Origin: an uncultured Oscillospiraceae bacterium
Lineage (GTDB): Bacteria > Bacillota > Clostridia > Oscillospirales > Oscillospiraceae
DNA: 64,000 nucleotides
NCBI GenBank assembly: GCA_944385445.1
Contig: CALWXF010000001.1
Coordinates: 124,001-188,000, forward strand
Reading direction: 5' to 3'
Under the pieces are notes generated by a model. The model had not been told where the DNA came from and made no database searches. It saw nothing but the letters and a program-made list of their open reading frames with translations. Position numbers and translations under genes: made by a program. Every line of letters begins with the position of its first letter. Within the stretch, counting starts at the first letter, position 1. Shown piece by piece: positions 7,705 through 61,390 of this stretch.

Positions 7705-8622
7705 ATCAGGCTTACCAGCCTGGTGGGGACGCTCCGCTGGGCCCGATTTCTTAGCGATAAGAAATCGGGGAAAGAATCGCCAAAGGCGGGGGCTTCCCCC
7801 GCCTTGTGGAATCCACCCCGCGGTACTGGGTGCCCCTGCGTCCTCCTCTTTGCGGCCCTGGAGCGGGTGGGGTCACATAGATGGCGTGGAACTTCCACCG
7901 GATGTGCCTGCTCCTCTGTGTAGTCGTGCTTCTACCGCCAGGGCCGTACCCTGGTGAGCCGCTGTTCCCAGCTATCGGCGGTCTGACTTCCGGTGCCTGC
8001 CAGACTCAAAGCCTCCCTTGTGTAAAGGGAGGTGGCGCCGCCGTAGGCGGTGACGGAGGGATTGATGGGGTAAGTGCCCTTGACCTCCCCTGTCCCCCGA
8101 CACAGACAACCCTTCAGTCAGCCCTACGGGCTGCCAGCTCCCCTTACACAGGGGAGCCTTTGGCTGGAAGTGACCCAGAACATTGCCGCATTTCCTAGGT
8201 TGCTGGATGTAGGGGAGGGGCACAGAAAGGGAAGAAGTAAGAGGAAACAGGTAAGAGGTGGAACCTTCTGGTGCTGCCCTGGCATTGCCAAGGGTTTCGG
8301 GCCGGGCAAGCCACGGCCCCTACCACAGCGCAACAAGATGGTGCGGCAGAAACTTCCGGCGGCGGGAGCGCCGCTTCTCCAGGGTAGGCCTGGGCGTGGA
8401 AACCACCCGGTGATAGGGCCAGCTGCCCTGGGTGGCCTGGTGTGGTGGCACAAACAGGAGCCACAGCAAGGGTGACGGGCCGAACGGGCACTTGACGCAG
8501 TTTTAGCTTCGTACCCCAGGGGGGTACTTAGGGGGGAACGCCCTAAGCGGGTTTTGGTTCCTTTTGCCCGACCAAAAGGAACCCCCAGCGGGGAGCGCCC
8601 CCACCAGGCTGGCAAGCCTGAG
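7705..8622 (-). repeat. Long hairpin-ended element, copy C, split by an insertion
   Basis: Read on the minus strand this is the same element as at 35836 and 60850. Its outer ends are inverted repeats (caggctta/gccagcctggtggggacgc on the left; gcgcccccaccaggctggc on the right). Just inside each end is a 10-bp perfect hairpin: cccgatttct... at 7742-7769 and ggttcctttt... at 8556-8583. Matches to the other copies run 7705 to about 7985 and about 8345 to 8622. The middle holds a short palindromic repeat (8008-8161) plus about 180 bp unrelated to the element. ORFs here are not conserved between copies. No transposase gene is present. Confidence 0.75.
8008..8161 (+). repeat. Short palindromic repeat, copy 3
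   Basis: A 154-bp copy with ends aaagcctccc and gggagccttt, lying inside long-element copy C. The variable hairpin is gccgccgtaggcgg, again paired but different from copies 1 and 2. The centre is longer than in the others by about 25 bp. Confidence 0.8.
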
Positions 8623-8731: not shown

Positions 8732-9727
8732 TTATTTTTTGGTCAGCAACCCTGCAATGCTTCGCACCGGGGCGAACAGCACCGCCGCCACCGGCCACAC
8801 AATCCAAGTGCGGTCCCAGGCCATGGTCCAGAAGCTCCAGCCCAGGTAGATGGCCAGCACCAGACCCCAGTAGATGGTGGTCAGAGGGCTGTTCTCCTCC
8901 CGCTTGTGCTCCCGGGTGTAGTCCCCAGTCTCCAACAGCCGCTGGAAGCTTCCGGCGATGATGCAGGTGCGCACCAGCAGGAACACGCCCACTGCCACTA
9001 TCACAAACATGAGGATGAGGCCGATGATGGGAGCCATGCCGTCCTCGTCAATGGCCACGGCCACCATCAGTGGGGCCAGACTGAGAATGCACAGGGTGAT
9101 ACCCACCACCAGCAGCATCAGGTGGGTGGACTGGTATTCGGCCTGACGCTTTTTTACCACGCCGTCCACTCCATAGGCCAGCTCCACAGGCTGGCTGTCC
9201 AGGTGCTCGTAGGGGGTCAGGCGGCTGCCAAAGAAGAGAAACAGGGCCACAGCGGCGGCCACCAGGGCCAGCATCACCAGGATGCCCACCCCGCCCGCCA
9301 GAGGCTCGGATAGGGTGAAGCGGCCCTCTTCGCTGGACAGGCCGCCCAGGTAAATGAGGGCGGTGGGGGAGAGGATGCACAGGAACACGCCCAGGGCGAT
9401 TTTGCTGGCCACCCCTCGCACCGTGTCCAGATAGATGTTGGCCTGCTCCAGGGTGATGTGGTGGACCGGGACTTGGGGCCCATCCAGGATGGGGGCAGGT
9501 TCCGGCTCTGCCTGGGGCAGCTCCGGCTCCATCTCGTCGAGGAGTAGGTAGTCGGTGCTCACCTCAAACAGCTGGCTGAGCCGGAGGATTTTGTCCAGGT
9601 CGGGGATGGAGCTGCCGCTCTCCCACTTGCTCACCGCCTGCCGGGATACCCCCAGCTGGTGGGCCAGCTCCTCCTGGGACCACCCGGCCTTTTTTCTCAA
9701 ATTTGTGATCTTATCTCCTAAAATCAT
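8732..9727 (-). CDS. Membrane-anchored XRE-type regulator
   Basis: 331 residues. The N-terminal 60 form a helix-turn-helix (LAHQLGVSRQAVSKWESGSS, about 21-40). A Pro/Glu-rich linker (65-90) follows, then about six hydrophobic spans in pairs up to the C-terminus. The start is MILGDKI at 9727, behind GGGAGG; a longer frame to 9775 lacks a site. This architecture (DNA-binding head on a polytopic membrane tail) is common in Clostridia and may let a membrane signal control transcription. No obvious partner gene is adjacent; glgA lies upstream in the same direction after 146 bases. Confidence 0.8.
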   Translation of the reverse strand: MILGDKITNLRKKAGWSQEELAHQLGVSRQAVSKWESGSSIPDLDKILRLSQLFEVSTDYLLLDEMEPELPQAEPEPAPILDGPQVPVHHITLEQANIYLDTVRGVASKIALGVFLCILSPTALIYLGGLSSEEGRFTLSEPLAGGVGILVMLALVAAAVALFLFFGSRLTPYEHLDSQPVELAYGVDGVVKKRQAEYQSTHLMLLVVGITLCILSLAPLMVAVAIDEDGMAPIIGLILMFVIVAVGVFLLVRTCIIAGSFQRLLETGDYTREHKREENSPLTTIYWGLVLAIYLGWSFWTMAWDRTWIVWPVAAVLFAPVRSIAGLLTKK

Positions 9728-9873
9728 AGGTGTGCCTCCCGTCGCTTTTGATGGTCTCATGGTAGCACCTCCCACGGTTGCAGGCCACCAAACAGGGCTG
9801 GAAATCTGTCAACTGCCGGTTGCGGCGGGGATATGACACCGTATTTTTGGGGGATTGGGGGCCATTTGGCCTT

Positions 9874-11955
9874 TTACCACTGGGTCAGCTCCAGATACAG
9901 ATCCTTGTACTGACGGGCGGAATTCTCCCAGGACACGTCCTTGGCCATGTCCCGCTGGACCACCTCGTCCCAGTGATAGCGGTTGGTGAAATAGAGGGTC
10001 TTGGCCCGGTTGATGGCGTCCAGCAGCAGCCCTGCGTCATAGCGGTCGAAGGTGAAGCCGTTGCCGTCTCCGGTGAAGGTGTTGTAGGGCTCCACGGTGT
10101 CCTTCAGGCCGCCGGTCTCCCGGACGATGGGCAGGGTGCCGTAGTGCATGGCGTTGAGCTGAGTCAGGCCGCAGGGCTCAAAGCGGGAGGGCACCAGCAG
10201 GGCGTCGGCGCCGGCGTAGATGCGGTGGGCCCGGGCCTCGTCGTACTGGATGCAGGCGCAGAAGGTGCCACGGTGGGTGCTCTCATAGTAGCGGAAGGTG
10301 TCCTCGTACTCCCGGTCGCCGGTGCCCAGCACCACCACCTGGGTGTTGCCGTCCAGCACCATGGGGATGATGGAGCTGACCAGGTCCAGACCCTTCTGGT
10401 TGGTCAGGCGGGAGATGAGGCCGATGACGAACTTGCCCTCGTCCTGCTCCAGCCCCAGCTCCTTTTGCAGGGCCAGCTTGTTGGCCATCTTGTGGTCCAG
10501 CACGTTGCCCAGCTCGTAGTTCTCGGCCAGAGCGGGGTCGGTGGCGGGGTTCCACATGTCGTAGTCAATGCCGTTGACGATGCCACGCAGCTTGCCGCTG
10601 TGGTAGCGCAGGTGGCCCTCCAGGTGCTCGCCGTACTCGGCGGTCTGGATCTCCCCGGCGTAGGTGCCGCTGACGGTGGTGACCCGGTCGGCGTAGGCGA
10701 TGCCGCCCTTGAGCATGTTGGCGTCCTGATAGCCGTCCTTCAAAGCGCCCATCTGGAACACCTCATTGGGCAGGCCGGACCAGTAGCGGATGGTGGGGAT
10801 GTTGTAAATACCCTGGAAGCGCAGGTTGTGGATGGTGAGGATGGACCGGGCGTGGCCCACGGGGGAGTCCTTGAACAGGGTGCGCAGATACACCGGCACC
10901 AGACCCGCCTGCCAGTCGTGGCAGTGGACAATGTCGGGGATCCAGTTTAAGTAGTTCAGGGCAGCCAGAGCGGCCTTGCTGAAGAAGCAGTACTTGGGAA
11001 TGTCGTCCACCAGGTTGGTGTAGGGGTTGCCGGAGGAGAAGAACTCCTGATTGTCAATGAAGTCGTACACCACGCCGTCACAGACATACTCCATAATTCC
11101 CACATAGTAGTTGCGCCCGGTGTTGCCCAGGTCCATGTAGAACTCGCCCCGGTACTCCATTTTCTCCTGGAACTTCTGGGGGATGCAGGCGTAGCGGGGC
11201 AGAATCACCCGCACGTCACAGTTGAGCTTCACCAGCTGACGGGGCAGGGCGTACATCACGTCGCCCAGACCGCCAGTCTTGACAAAGGGGTGACATTCCG
11301 AGCCGATGAAGGCAATGCTTCTCCGGGGCAGGTTGGACATCTCATACATAGGTTTGACCTCCTCCACAACAGGTGATACATCTTCTTCCACACTGGGAGC
11401 GGTTTCCTCTTCCACAGGGGCGGGTTCTTCTTCCACGGGAGCGACCTCCTCCACGACAGGAGCGGCCTCTTCCACCACGGGAGCAGCTTCCTCCACGACA
11501 GGAGCGGCCTCTTCCGCCACGGGAGCGGCTTCCTCCACGACAGGGGCGGTTTCTTCCACCACGGGAGTGACCTCCTCCACGACGGGGGCGGCTTCTTCCA
11601 CCACCGGGGCGGGCTTCTTAGCGGCAGAGGCGGGCTTCTTCCGGGTGCTGGTGGTCTTGCGGGTGCTGGTCCGGGTCTTGGCAGCGGGCTTGGCTGCGGC
11701 GGGCTCTTCCACCACAGCGGGCTCGGGCTGCTCCACGGCAGCGGCAGTCTCCGCCACAGCGGGCTCGGGCTGCTCCACGGCAGCGGCAGTCTCCGCCACA
11801 GCGGGCTCAACCTGCTCCACGGCGGTGGTGGTCTCCACCTCGGCGGTCACAGGCTCTGCTGTCGGGGCGACGGTACGGGCCGGGGCGGGGGCTTTCTTGA
11901 CCACTTTCTTGGCAGTGGTTTTCTTTTTGGAGGAACGTGCCTTCTTGTGTACCAT
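9874..11955 (-). CDS. glgA: Glycogen synthase with long acidic repeat extension
   Basis: ADP-glucose:glycogen glucosyltransferase (GT5). The catalytic part begins near residue 213 (RRSIAFIGSECHPF) with the ADP-glucose loop KTGGLGD at 226-232. It continues to the C-terminal GT-B half with RFEPCGLTQLNAM, for about 480 residues, the usual GlgA size. Before it sit about 210 extra residues: a Lys-rich start (KKARSSKKKTTAKK), tandem AVEQPEPAVAETAA units, a TSTRKK basic stretch, then more than ten PVVEEAA-type repeats. The start MVHKKAR is set by AAAGGAAG. No glgB, glgC or glgP is nearby. The extension may tether the enzyme or be poorly folded; its role is unknown. Confidence 0.92.
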   Translation of the reverse strand: MVHKKARSSKKKTTAKKVVKKAPAPARTVAPTAEPVTAEVETTTAVEQVEPAVAETAAAVEQPEPAVAETAAAVEQPEPAVVEEPAAAKPAAKTRTSTRKTTSTRKKPASAAKKPAPVVEEAAPVVEEVTPVVEETAPVVEEAAPVAEEAAPVVEEAAPVVEEAAPVVEEVAPVEEEPAPVEEETAPSVEEDVSPVVEEVKPMYEMSNLPRRSIAFIGSECHPFVKTGGLGDVMYALPRQLVKLNCDVRVILPRYACIPQKFQEKMEYRGEFYMDLGNTGRNYYVGIMEYVCDGVVYDFIDNQEFFSSGNPYTNLVDDIPKYCFFSKAALAALNYLNWIPDIVHCHDWQAGLVPVYLRTLFKDSPVGHARSILTIHNLRFQGIYNIPTIRYWSGLPNEVFQMGALKDGYQDANMLKGGIAYADRVTTVSGTYAGEIQTAEYGEHLEGHLRYHSGKLRGIVNGIDYDMWNPATDPALAENYELGNVLDHKMANKLALQKELGLEQDEGKFVIGLISRLTNQKGLDLVSSIIPMVLDGNTQVVVLGTGDREYEDTFRYYESTHRGTFCACIQYDEARAHRIYAGADALLVPSRFEPCGLTQLNAMHYGTLPIVRETGGLKDTVEPYNTFTGDGNGFTFDRYDAGLLLDAINRAKTLYFTNRYHWDEVVQRDMAKDVSWENSARQYKDLYLELTQW

Positions 11956-35835: not shown

Positions 35836-36366
35836 CCGGTGGGGACGCTCCGCTTATGCCCGATTTCTCCCCGATGAGAAATCGGGGAAAGAATCGCTTA
35901 GGGCGTTCCCCCCTAAGGACCTCCCTGGAGTACCAGGCTGGACCTGCGTCAAGTCTACGTTCGGCCCGTGACCCTTGCTGTGGCTCCTGCTACTGCCACC
36001 ACACCAGGCTATCCTGGGCAATTGGCCCTATGACTGGGCGGTTTCCACCTCCGGGCCTACTCTGGAGAAGCGGCGTTCCCGCCGCCGGGAGCTAGGCTTT
36101 CGACCGCTGGGAACAGCGGCGGACCAAGGAAGGCCCTGGTAGTAGGTGTGCAAACGTACAGAGAAGTAGGCACATTCCGTTGAATTGACCTGCCATCTAT
36201 GTGACACCACCAGGTCAAGGGCCGAAAAGAGAAGGTCGTATACTCCAACCAGTACCGGCGGGGTGGATTCCATAAGGCGGGGGAAGGCCCCGCCTTTGGT
36301 GGTCTTTGGTTCCTTTCTGGCAGCAGAAAGGAACCCCCAGCGGGTAGCGCATCCCCGTGACTGGTA
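35836..36366 (+). repeat. Long hairpin-ended element, copy A
   Basis: About 530 bp without a conserved ORF. End hairpins are cccgatttct / agaaatcggg (35859-35886) and ggttcctttc / gaaaggaacc (36308-36335). Internal hairpins are gcggcg-ttcc-cgccgc (36070-36085) and ccgct-gggaac-agcgg (36104-36119). The ends (ggtggggacgctccgc and gcgggtagcgcatcccc) are imperfect inverted repeats. Long conserved blocks shared with copies B and C include ttagggcgttcccccctaag, cttgctgtggct, ctggagaagcgg and ggggtggattcca. It sits between two HAD genes and fills the whole intergenic space. Confidence 0.8.
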
Positions 36367-51994: not shown

Positions 51995-52070
51995 TGGTGA
52001 CCCAGCGGGGACTCGAACCCCGGACCTTCGCCTTAAAAGGGCGTTGCTCTACCAACTGAGCTACTAGGTC
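51995..52070 (-). tRNA. tRNA-Lys (anticodon TTT)
   Basis: A full cloverleaf on the minus strand. The acceptor GACCTAG pairs with CTGGGTC (one G-T wobble), the D arm is GCTC/GAGC, and the anticodon loop is CTTTTAA with anticodon TTT. The T arm is CGGGG/CCCCG with TTCGAGT, the discriminator is A and the CCA is encoded. Last gene of the cluster. Confidence 0.95.
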
Positions 52071-52122
52071 ATATGAAGTTATTCCACAAAGTCCCCCCGG
52101 GCGAGCCAGGGGGACGATGGTC

Positions 52123-52197
52123 TGGCTGGGATGGTTGGACTCGAACCAACGAATGCGGGAGTCAAAGTCCCGTGCCTTACCACTTGGCTACACCCCA
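52123..52197 (-). tRNA. tRNA-Gln (anticodon TTG)
   Basis: Acceptor TGGGGTG / CATCCCA, anticodon loop CTTTGAC with anticodon TTG, T arm GTTGG/CCAAC, discriminator G, encoded CCA. A gtccccccggg... hairpin (52091-52115) separates it from tRNA-Lys. Confidence 0.95.
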
Positions 52198-52252
52198 ATG
52201 AAGAGGATGGAAGCAAGGGCCGGAGCGGACGCTCCGGCCCTTAGCCACAGTA

Positions 52253-52329
52253 TGGGGTGGGTAATGGGGCTCGAACCCACGACACCCGGAACCACAATCC
52301 GGTGCTCTGCCAACTGAGCTATACCCACC
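52253..52329 (-). tRNA. tRNA-His (anticodon GTG)
   Basis: Acceptor GTGGGTA / TACCCAC with the extra 5' G-1 paired to C73, as required by HisRS. Anticodon loop TTGTGGT with anticodon GTG, encoded CCA. A gggccggagcg / cgctccggccc hairpin (52217-52241) lies between it and tRNA-Gln. Confidence 0.95.
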
Positions 52330-52368
52330 ATATTGACTTGCTGTGCTGATTTCACAAGGGCGAAAAAC

Positions 52369-52427
52369 TGGCACGCCTGAAGTTTGACCGATCAGCGAAC
52401 ATGCCAGTGGCATGTTTGCCGGTCAAA
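52369..52427. other. att-like duplication of the tRNA-Arg 3' end plus palindrome
   Basis: tggcacgcctgaag at 52369-52382 repeats exactly the last 14 bases of tRNA-Arg with its CCA (52532-52545). Just inside is an imperfect palindrome (52383-52427: tttgaccg...cggtcaaa with inner gcgaacatgcca / tggcatgtttgc). The 105 bases up to 52531 hold nothing recognisable. This is the look of an integration site left by a tRNA-targeting element. Confidence 0.6.
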
Positions 52428-52531
52428 GTCCCTTCCGCAGAAAGGGAGCCGAAGGCGAACCTTGATGCGCAACAGGAGTGCCTTCTGCCAGCAATGCAGG
52501 AATCTCATTCAGAGGCAACACTCTAAATGAT

Positions 52532-52608
<77 letters not shown>

Positions 52609-52611
52609 GTA

Positions 52612-52685
52612 TGGAGCGGGTGATGGGAATCGAACCCACGCGACCAGCTTGGAAGGCTGGGATTCTACCATTGAACTACACCCGC
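52612..52685 (-). tRNA. tRNA-Gly (anticodon TCC)
   Basis: Acceptor GCGGGTG / CACCCGC, D arm GTTC/GAAT, anticodon loop CTTCCAA with anticodon TCC, T arm GTGGG/CCCAT, discriminator T, encoded CCA. It is the first gene of the cluster and only three bases separate it from tRNA-Arg. Confidence 0.95.
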
Positions 52686-60849: not shown

Positions 60850-61390
60850 CGGCTTGCCAGCCTGGTGGGGACGCTTCCCGCTGGGGGTTCCTTTTGCTCG
60901 GTCAAAAGGAACCAAAACCCGCTTAGGGCGTTCCCCCCTAAGGACCTCCCTGGGGTACGAGGCTGGACCTGCGTCAAGTCTAAATTCGGCCCGTCACCCT
61001 TGCTGTGGCTTCTGTTACTGCCATCACACCAGGCTACCCTGGGTAGCTGGCCCTATGGCTGGGTGATTTCCCTATCCGGGCCTACCCTGGAGAAGCGGTG
61101 TTCCCACCGCCGGGAGCCAGGCTATCCGCAACTGGGAACAGTTGCACACCATGGTAAGGCCCTGGAGGTAGAAGCACTGTCTGTCAGAGAAGTAGGTATG
61201 TTCTATAGAAGTTTCACACCATCTATGTGACCCCACCAGCCCAAGGGCCGAAGCAAGGAGAACGCAGGTGTATCCAGCACCGCGGGGTGGATTCCACAAG
61301 GCGGGGGAAGGCCCCGCCTTTGGCGGTCTTTGGTGACTTTCTGGCGGCAGAAAGTCACCCCAGCGGAGCGTCCCCACCGGGGGCGCAGGT
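60850..61390 (+). repeat. Long hairpin-ended element, copy B
   Basis: About 540 bp, collinear with copy A over its whole length. End hairpins are ggttcctttt / aaaaggaacc (60886-60913) and ggtgactttc / gaaagtcacc (61332-61359). Internal hairpins are gcggtg-ttcc-caccgc (61095-61110) and gcaact-gggaac-agttgc (61128-61145). The ends gtggggacgcttcccgctgg and ccagcggagcgtccccac are inverted repeats of each other. It lies between the phosphate-regulon terminator and the convergent FtsX gene. No supported ORF. Confidence 0.8.

Follow-up and report, generated by a model that had tools for sequence, protein, structure and literature searches.

A family of about 510-bp non-coding repeats, probably mobile, with inward-facing and putatively folded end modules in an Oscillospiraceae genome and its relatives

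The window analyzed here, a stretch of 64,000 nucleotides from an uncultured Oscillospiraceae bacterium, contains three copies of a repeat. They probably belong to a family of non-coding DNA elements of ~510 bp that are mobile but non-autonomous, each being a diverged inverted repeat with two inward-facing, putatively folded end modules. As far as sequence comparison can show, the family is marked by a high copy number, a tight length, no coding capacity, a patchy species distribution, and variable orthologous sites; stem pairing, a mirrored third strand, and loop/antiloop pairing are largely kept while the letters change.

A preliminary description of the window had named the three copies (A, B, and C), and all of them were confirmed at their coordinates. 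Copies A and B are of full length. Copy C, on the minus strand, measures 918 bp compared with 541 bp for copy B, and is a full copy split near its middle by an insert of ~365 bp, which contains another repeat. The copies and their end modules are as follows (window coordinates).

35836..36366, plus strand: copy A, full element, with modules at C1:159840-159920 and C1:160268-160355
35859..35898, plus strand: left end module of copy A; stem CCCGATTTCTC/GAGAAATCGGG, loop CCCGAT, R' AAAGA, antiloop ATCGCT (locus L031, position 860)
36298..36335, minus strand: right end module of copy A, reading inward; stem GGTTCCTTTCTG/CAGAAAGGAACC, R' AAAGA; loop and antiloop not complementary
60850..61390, plus strand: copy B, full element
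60886..60923, plus strand: left end module of copy B; stem GGTTCCTTTTG/CAAAAGGAACC, loop CTCGGT, R' AAAA, antiloop CCCGCT, with a 3-bp run here (locus L001, position 1537)
61322..61359, minus strand: right end module of copy B, reading inward; stem GGTGACTTTCTG/CAGAAAGTCACC, R' AAAGA; the flipped loop fits the antiloop better
7705..8622, minus strand: copy C, full element with an interruption of ~365 bp (locus L041)
8546..8583, minus strand: left end module of copy C; stem GGTTCCTTTTG/CAAAAGGAACC, loop GTCGGG, R' AAAA, antiloop CCCGCT (L041)
7742..7781, plus strand: right end module of copy C, reading inward; stem CCCGATTTCTTA/TAAGAAATCGGG, loop with flanks TAGCGATA pairing with ATCGCC (5 bp), R' AAAGA (L041, position 743)

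Elsewhere in the window, a minus-strand cluster of five tRNA genes was seen at 51998-52685, and tandem repeats with 42-bp and 21-bp units were seen within long overlapping ORFs at 11384-11825.

The genome containing the window (2.15 Mb, 91% complete) is placed near Pseudoflavonifractor. BLASTN with copy B gave at least 77 matching pieces in this genome, a lower bound obtained by scoring 40 of 75 first-look candidates; copy A likewise matched dozens of places, and 32 copies with a match longer than 400 bp were extracted from the BLASTN pieces. A covariance model of the end module, designated R1, whose E-values are rough, gave 118 matches at E ≤ 0.01, or 117 modules once one weak match (E 0.0017) was dropped. 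These modules form 50 inward-facing pairs (100 modules), the other 17 being unpaired, and 44 of the 50 pairs span 484-520 bp from end to end. The family is thus considerably larger than the three copies from which it was described. A profile search of the same genome and its relatives yielded 374 matches, which were reduced to 196 non-overlapping matches, to 108 covering more than 400 positions, and finally to 90 unique copies.

The lack of a shared reading frame noted for the three copies was borne out in the larger set. The longest stop-free run had a median of 68-87 codons over all six frames, and multiples of three accounted for 11% of the deletions and 5% of the insertions among indels shorter than 13, showing no frame signature. 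A conserved protein frame, which had been named beforehand as grounds for abandoning the description, was not found across the copies. The statement that no Rfam class could be recognized also held: a search of the whole window at gathering scores found no Rfam family matching the element, and a relaxed search with copy A alone gave seven matches, every one of which was under the cut-off of its family. Copy B had no DNA match among the phage and plasmid records of the named collections, and no description of these repeats was found in the open-access literature searched (one library, which is not proof of absence in print).

Reading from the outside inward, the element opens with a cap, of which there are two types. 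A short inverted repeat (GGGGACGCTCCGCTGGGG type) follows, and then come the end module, another hairpin (CTTAGGGCGTTCCCCCCTAAG or its counterpart), and finally the interior. By eye, the caps are Y..X in copy A, X..Y in copy B, and X..X in copy C. The whole element is a diverged inverted repeat, in which the 3' half, taken on the opposite strand, aligns with the 5' half with an E-value of 3e-16; this is why the loops GTTCCC and GGGAAC pointed out earlier are reverse-complementary to each other. Kissing loops between the two interior hairpins are not claimed, because the complementarity already follows from the inverted-repeat structure. Several copies besides copy C are interrupted or truncated mid-element. 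A second abundant repeat family (AAGCCTCCCTTGTGTAAAGGGAGG...GACGGAGGGATTGT) adjoins or sits within many copies, partly lengthening the inverted ends, and was seen in L004, L033, L036, L037, and other flanks.

The listed alleles of the end module give the strand order a-Y-b-R-a'-R'-b'. The strands a and a' form an outer stem, which is hypervariable, and Y and R form an inner pyrimidine-purine stem (TTTT/AAAA, TTTTT/AAAAA, or TTTCT/AGAAA). R' mirrors R (AAAA, AAAAA, or AAAGA, respectively), and the loop b pairs with b' (AGCGGG/CCCGCT, AGCGGC/GCCGCT, AGTGGC/GCCACT, and AGCGAT/ATCGCT). These relations were scored in 159 haplotypes, which were obtained by a hairpin scan of both strands and selected for an A-tract in the flank from 796 matches. 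An exact R/R' mirror was present in 140 of the 159 haplotypes, compared with a mean of 42.7 and a maximum of 62 in 10,000 permutations of R', a test made within a set that many loci had entered via R1, which favors A-tract flanks. The mirror rule as scored was broken in 19 haplotypes, at least two of them (L195) because the pattern clipped a longer mirror. Loop/antiloop scoring took in 153 of the 159 haplotypes, and a run of at least 4 bp was observed in 80 of 105 unique pairs (permuted mean 20.7, maximum 33, 2,000 permutations). The flipped loop was better in 13 of the 105 unique pairs, including one allele with 18 occurrences, and equal in 17, indicating that loop/antiloop pairing is not strictly required. 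Some 3' end modules have the look of a flipped hairpin, as in L001, where the loop GCCGCC stands beside the antiloop CCGCC. Judged from these patterns, the end module resembles a purine-motif intrastrand triplex with locked loops; once the full 11-bp stem has formed, a linker of 4-6 nt may not reach far enough to let every helix form together.

Subsequently fetched sequences from other lineages served as a partly independent test of the mirror and loop rules. When 40 genomes were searched with copy B, 10 matched, all of them within the 25 genomes of the same genus (the genome of the window included), and none of the 15 from other families did. Among the ten carriers, G004 had one weak match, and G008 and G019 matched only at the element ends. 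A 22-base motif of the element was found, among the matches listed, in Pseudoflavonifractor sp. An44 and An85, P. capillosus An386a, Candidatus Enterenecus avicola, and uncultured Oscillospiraceae, as well as in one contig labelled Merdimonas. In the multi-genome searches with R1, which scored the best 15-18 candidates per genome, matches at E ≤ 0.001 came from at least 18 of 245 genomes of the order, including four from the genus; at E ≤ 1e-4, at least 4 of 291 genomes of the class matched, and two of these belong to family f87, which lies outside the order. Loci of the order have the same layout in other letters (T6/A6/A6, TTTTCT/AGAAAA/AAAAGA, and TTTCTTT/AAAGAAA/AAAGAAA), and inward pairs with an interior that looks unrelated by eye are present in another family (L185 and L207).

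With the mirror rule unchanged, exact mirrors were present in 1 of the 4 later f87 haplotypes and 6 of the 19 later phage haplotypes; none of the former had a loop run of at least 4 bp, compared with nine of the latter. The exact-mirror rule cannot score longer mixed tracts, and the longest mirror run was measured for these loci. The mean mirror run of 24 later haplotypes (f87 and phages) was 5.38, compared with 4.50 after permutation (maximum 5.12), and none of 5,000 trials reached the observed value. When the subsets were taken separately, 2 of 5,000 trials did so for the phages and 276 of 5,000 for f87, the latter being not significant. Mirrors of 8 nt such as AAAGAAAA/AAAAGAAA were found among the later loci, in L289, L291, and L293. 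By these counts, the mirror relation extends past the first haplotype set, and the loop pairing holds less well.

Covariation was tested in the 90 unique copies by a G-test with APC, for which substitutions were re-thrown on the branches of a FastTree tree as the null. Covariation above background was found with this tree-aware null and was strongest at the ends. When all pairs were tested, 18 pairs had E < 0.05, every one of them within the end modules; seven of these are proposed base pairs, whereas 11 are linked neighbors. A restricted set of 68 pairs was picked after the same alignment had been seen, and includes six pairs of a helix (H9) that was built with the wrong 3' arm and is not interpreted. 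In this set, E was below 0.001 for 11 of 21 end-stem pairs and for the loop-flank pairs 52-68, 474-498, 476-496, and 477-495. The preliminary description had drawn on two interior hairpins, with loops kept and arms changing, to propose selection for folding rather than coding. For the hairpin ccgct-gggaac-agcgg (H7), E was 3.05 when all pairs were tested and 0.0016 in the chosen 68-pair set, the signal being that of columns 281-292 with 12 inferred double changes. The hairpin gcggCg-ttcc-cGccgc (H5) was weaker, with 0.09 and 0.30 in the 68-pair set, in which the interior pair 452-466 gave E 0.0025 and the interior hairpin H8 showed no covariation. These results support selection for folding rather than coding, mostly at the ends and modestly for the two named hairpins.

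A mutational artefact could also produce such patterns, if palindromes correct themselves by strand switching and blocks are exchanged, in which case the covariation would be haplotype linkage with no selected fold behind it. Hairpin alleles are indeed common to several loci and species as blocks, flipped loops exist, and the 11 linked neighbors make up most of the 18 significant column pairs. However, strand switching yields inverted or direct repeats, not mirrors like AGAAA/AAAGA or the 8-nt mirrors described above, and the mirror reappears in unrelated sequences from other families and from phages. We regard this origin as distinctly improbable.

H-type RNA pseudoknots share the topology of these ends, in which a loop pairs with its flank and the linker is A-rich. 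The element could accordingly be a large structured RNA (~500 nt) spread as a dispersed repeat and acting as a transcript, its ends forming RNA pseudoknots with A-rich third strands. The topology of the ends matches this reading, as do the strong end covariation, folding z-scores of about -8, and loops that are kept while stems change; in the sample of 24 copies (out of 90) that was folded, the raw folding energy was slightly lower on the minus strand (-277.7 vs -282.5 kcal/mol, p = 0.026). However, the z-scores of the same 24 copies were equal between the strands (-8.17 vs -8.10, paired p = 0.84), and gene orientation shows no strand preference either. Furthermore, the two end modules are placed as mirror images and read inward from opposite strands. 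The right-hand module folds on the other strand only. In imperfect end stems, three A.C-type mismatches were counted by eye against one of the G.U type, a weak count. In the mirrored strand, G lies over C-G pairs and A over T-A pairs, as in the purine triplex code, and one report states that purine-motif triplexes are unable to form in RNA (PMC4666352); the mirror strand consequently favors single-stranded DNA. Taken together, a structured RNA seems unlikely, and the end fold is more plausibly one of single-stranded DNA than of RNA. The preliminary description had offered both a structured RNA and a non-autonomous mobile element whose transposase recognizes hairpins. The mobile element with hairpin ends fits better, because of the equal z-scores, the mirror-placed ends, the lack of orientation bias, the triplex code, and the variable occupancy described below, although no hairpin-recognizing enzyme was found.

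Mobility is supported by the patchy distribution and by host and phage sites that occur with and without the element. One host site carries the element in L018 and L062 and is empty in L095; a second carries it in L030, and L117 has another repeat instead; a third has a full element in L022 and a collapsed mini-form in L137. At the site of copy A, where the window genome has a full element, G020 has none, G009 has a mini-element, and G024 has an element with the same ends and a different interior; in G001, G010, and G018, the match was at the downstream flank only. A third repeat, which is AT-rich (ATCCGTGCCGC...GCGGCACACC...ATTCATGATTCA), was observed in L115, L117, and L119, sites orthologous to L030 and L004, which carry the element in the window genome.

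For the phages, 20 contigs with a related capsid protein were collected, and one (L296), which is cut inside the capsid gene, was left out. In 5 of the 19 contigs (the query's own included), modules lay in the gap that follows the capsid gene, before the next gene, and none were detected there in the other 14. The gap between these genes measured 1,063 bp in L282, 607 bp in L293, and 542 bp in L287, compared with 98, 67, 66, and 69 bp in L284, L291, L290, and L286, respectively. Phage contig L252 has several intergenic modules (1553-2013, 9669-10410, 12244, and 13268), including at least two inward pairs, and some of them break the mirror rule. Another, L250, has two outward-facing modules with identical alleles (3671 and 6419), together with ORFs that look terminase-like and portal-like by eye.

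No clean target-site duplication was seen by eye at ten orthologous site pairs, and no excision product, autonomous copy, or moving enzyme was found. One long inward candidate pair among the unpaired modules, L254 (contig C4), was considered as an autonomous element and set aside, because its ORFs resemble recF and dnaN when judged by eye. The identity of the elements ranged from 0.756 to 0.998 over 15 orthologous site pairs that matched in both flanks, and did not track flank identity. The orthologue was the closest copy (or the second in one direction) in 8 of the 15 pairs, suggesting that many copies may be old residents, and ranked seventh or lower in the other 7. The hairpins of the close orthologues L052 and L060 differ by one compensatory base pair, and L088 and L137 show a switch between the T5/A5/A5 and T4/A4/A4 layouts. 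Such differences even between close orthologues suggest that it is often whole modules that change, en bloc, around a core that remains similar. Concerted evolution by genome was considered and set aside: the nearest copy by core was from the same genome in 36 of 90 cases, compared with 22.3 after shuffling (maximum 37), a weak tendency only.

Gene context, which was taken from heuristic ORFs and covers 77 of the 90 copies, was convergent for 25, co-directional for 45, and divergent for 7. Relative to co-directional genes, the two orientations were found 22 and 23 times, showing no bias. Of 168 flank sides, 58 had terminator-like hairpins reading in the direction of the element and 35 had them reading away from it. 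Gyrase or IHF binding, mRNA protection, and transcription insulation have been proposed as functions of BIMEs, and the present repeats could similarly be resident chromosome-structure or 3'-end repeats that are conserved in place and seldom move. Their sites past gene ends with avoidance of divergent promoters, the eight site pairs in which the orthologue is closest or next-closest, and the direction of the terminator-like hairpins are in line with this idea. Residence is nevertheless at odds with presence and absence varying in hosts and phages, with replacement at fixed sites as in the seven low-ranking pairs, and with the lack of orientation bias, and we consider it improbable.

For a mobile element, the following course can be proposed. 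When a DNA strand is exposed during replication, during repair, or in phage DNA, each end would fold into a hairpin, the third purine strand would lie on the inner stem as a purine-motif triplex, and the antiloop would lock the loop. A trans-acting recombinase or transposase would then read the shape rather than the sequence and move or exchange the element, which would go mostly into intergenic DNA past gene ends. Copies may also exchange whole end modules and flip hairpins, by gene conversion or strand switching, and this would explain how orthologous sites differ in their modules while the folding rules persist.

RAYT (PF01797) is the best-known mover of REP-type repeats. PF01797 had no match in the window genome, at its 91% completeness, nor in the carriers G009, G018, G020, and G024. 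It matched in five of the ten carriers (G001, G004, G008, G010, and G019, the match in G010 being partial and with a stop) and in 16 of 42 genus genomes overall. The REPIN guide (GTAG/GTGG or CGTC) was found in the 6 nt before the stem in 0 of the 159 haplotypes. A RAYT/REP explanation was rejected in view of the window genome without a PF01797 match and the stems without a GTAG-type guide, although half of the carriers do match. With PF01797 unmatched in five carriers and matched in five, RAYT fails to account for the family, yet its exclusion is not a clean one. The further idea that the gut Clostridia and their phages harbor in these repeats a mobile element of a new class, with ends read as a three-strand fold of single-stranded DNA (a purine triplex with a loop-antiloop lock), a mover other than RAYT, and letters drifting freely under a folding code, is doubtful but worth entertaining; the RAYT matches in five of ten carriers lowered our estimate of it.

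The arms, the mirror strand, and, in most alleles, the loop lock covary across lineages, and would represent a natural, evolution-tested code for nucleic-acid folding in three strands. A biological activity of intrastrand triplexes in bacteria has been proposed before, and comparative evidence of this type would allow such a role to be tested directly. If the elements are mobile, common gut bacteria and their phages would hold an enzyme that reads shape and might be put to use as a tool. The intergenic DNA of these genomes is also reshaped by the elements.

GOLLD, ROOL, and OLE are large structured non-coding RNAs of bacteria. By their general description, they resemble the present element in extending over hundreds of nucleotides with complex folding; the element differs in having no Rfam match, z-scores without strand preference, and a very high copy number. 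Like MITEs, the repeats are short and non-coding, with terminal inverted repeats and many copies, whereas no target-site duplication (by eye, at the ten site pairs) or related transposon was found, and the terminal sequence varies between lineages while the fold is largely kept.

REPINs and BIMEs are described as dispersed intergenic units with two inverted hairpin modules and compensatory stem changes (PMC3116915), and our repeats share these properties as dispersed, intergenic, non-coding units with 50 inward pairs in the window genome. However, according to two reports, the sequence of REPIN ends is highly conserved, a GTAG-type guide precedes the hairpin on its 5' side, and the genome contains a RAYT (PMC3116915, PMC6006769), whereas the ends described here are hypervariable and the units measure ~510 bp. 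The end modules also follow the order of the intrastrand triplex motifs TM-ECO, BoxC, and PIT (class II, purine), namely a pyrimidine arm, a loop, a purine arm, a spacer, and a mirrored purine strand, and the mirror between the purine arm and the 3' strand by which class II is recognized was found in them. These motifs are, in the triplex report cited above, abundant repeats tied to genomic instability, and the finder published there requires a strand length of at least 6 (PMC4666352); most strands here fall below this length, R having at least 6 nt in 15 of the 159 haplotypes, with L195, clipped by the pattern, in addition. The TM-ECO pattern does not occur in the window; TM-ECO itself is rich in G/C and has strands of 9 nt, whereas the strands here are mostly A-rich and 4-6 nt long. 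Unlike in TM-ECO, both loops can pair with flanks, and the modules stand at both ends of a longer element. REPINs are thus the nearest functional analogue and intrastrand triplex motifs the nearest structural analogue. The family is best filed as a REPIN/MITE-like mobile repeat with new ends, and it is a serious possibility that the end structure and the enzyme acting on it constitute a new class.
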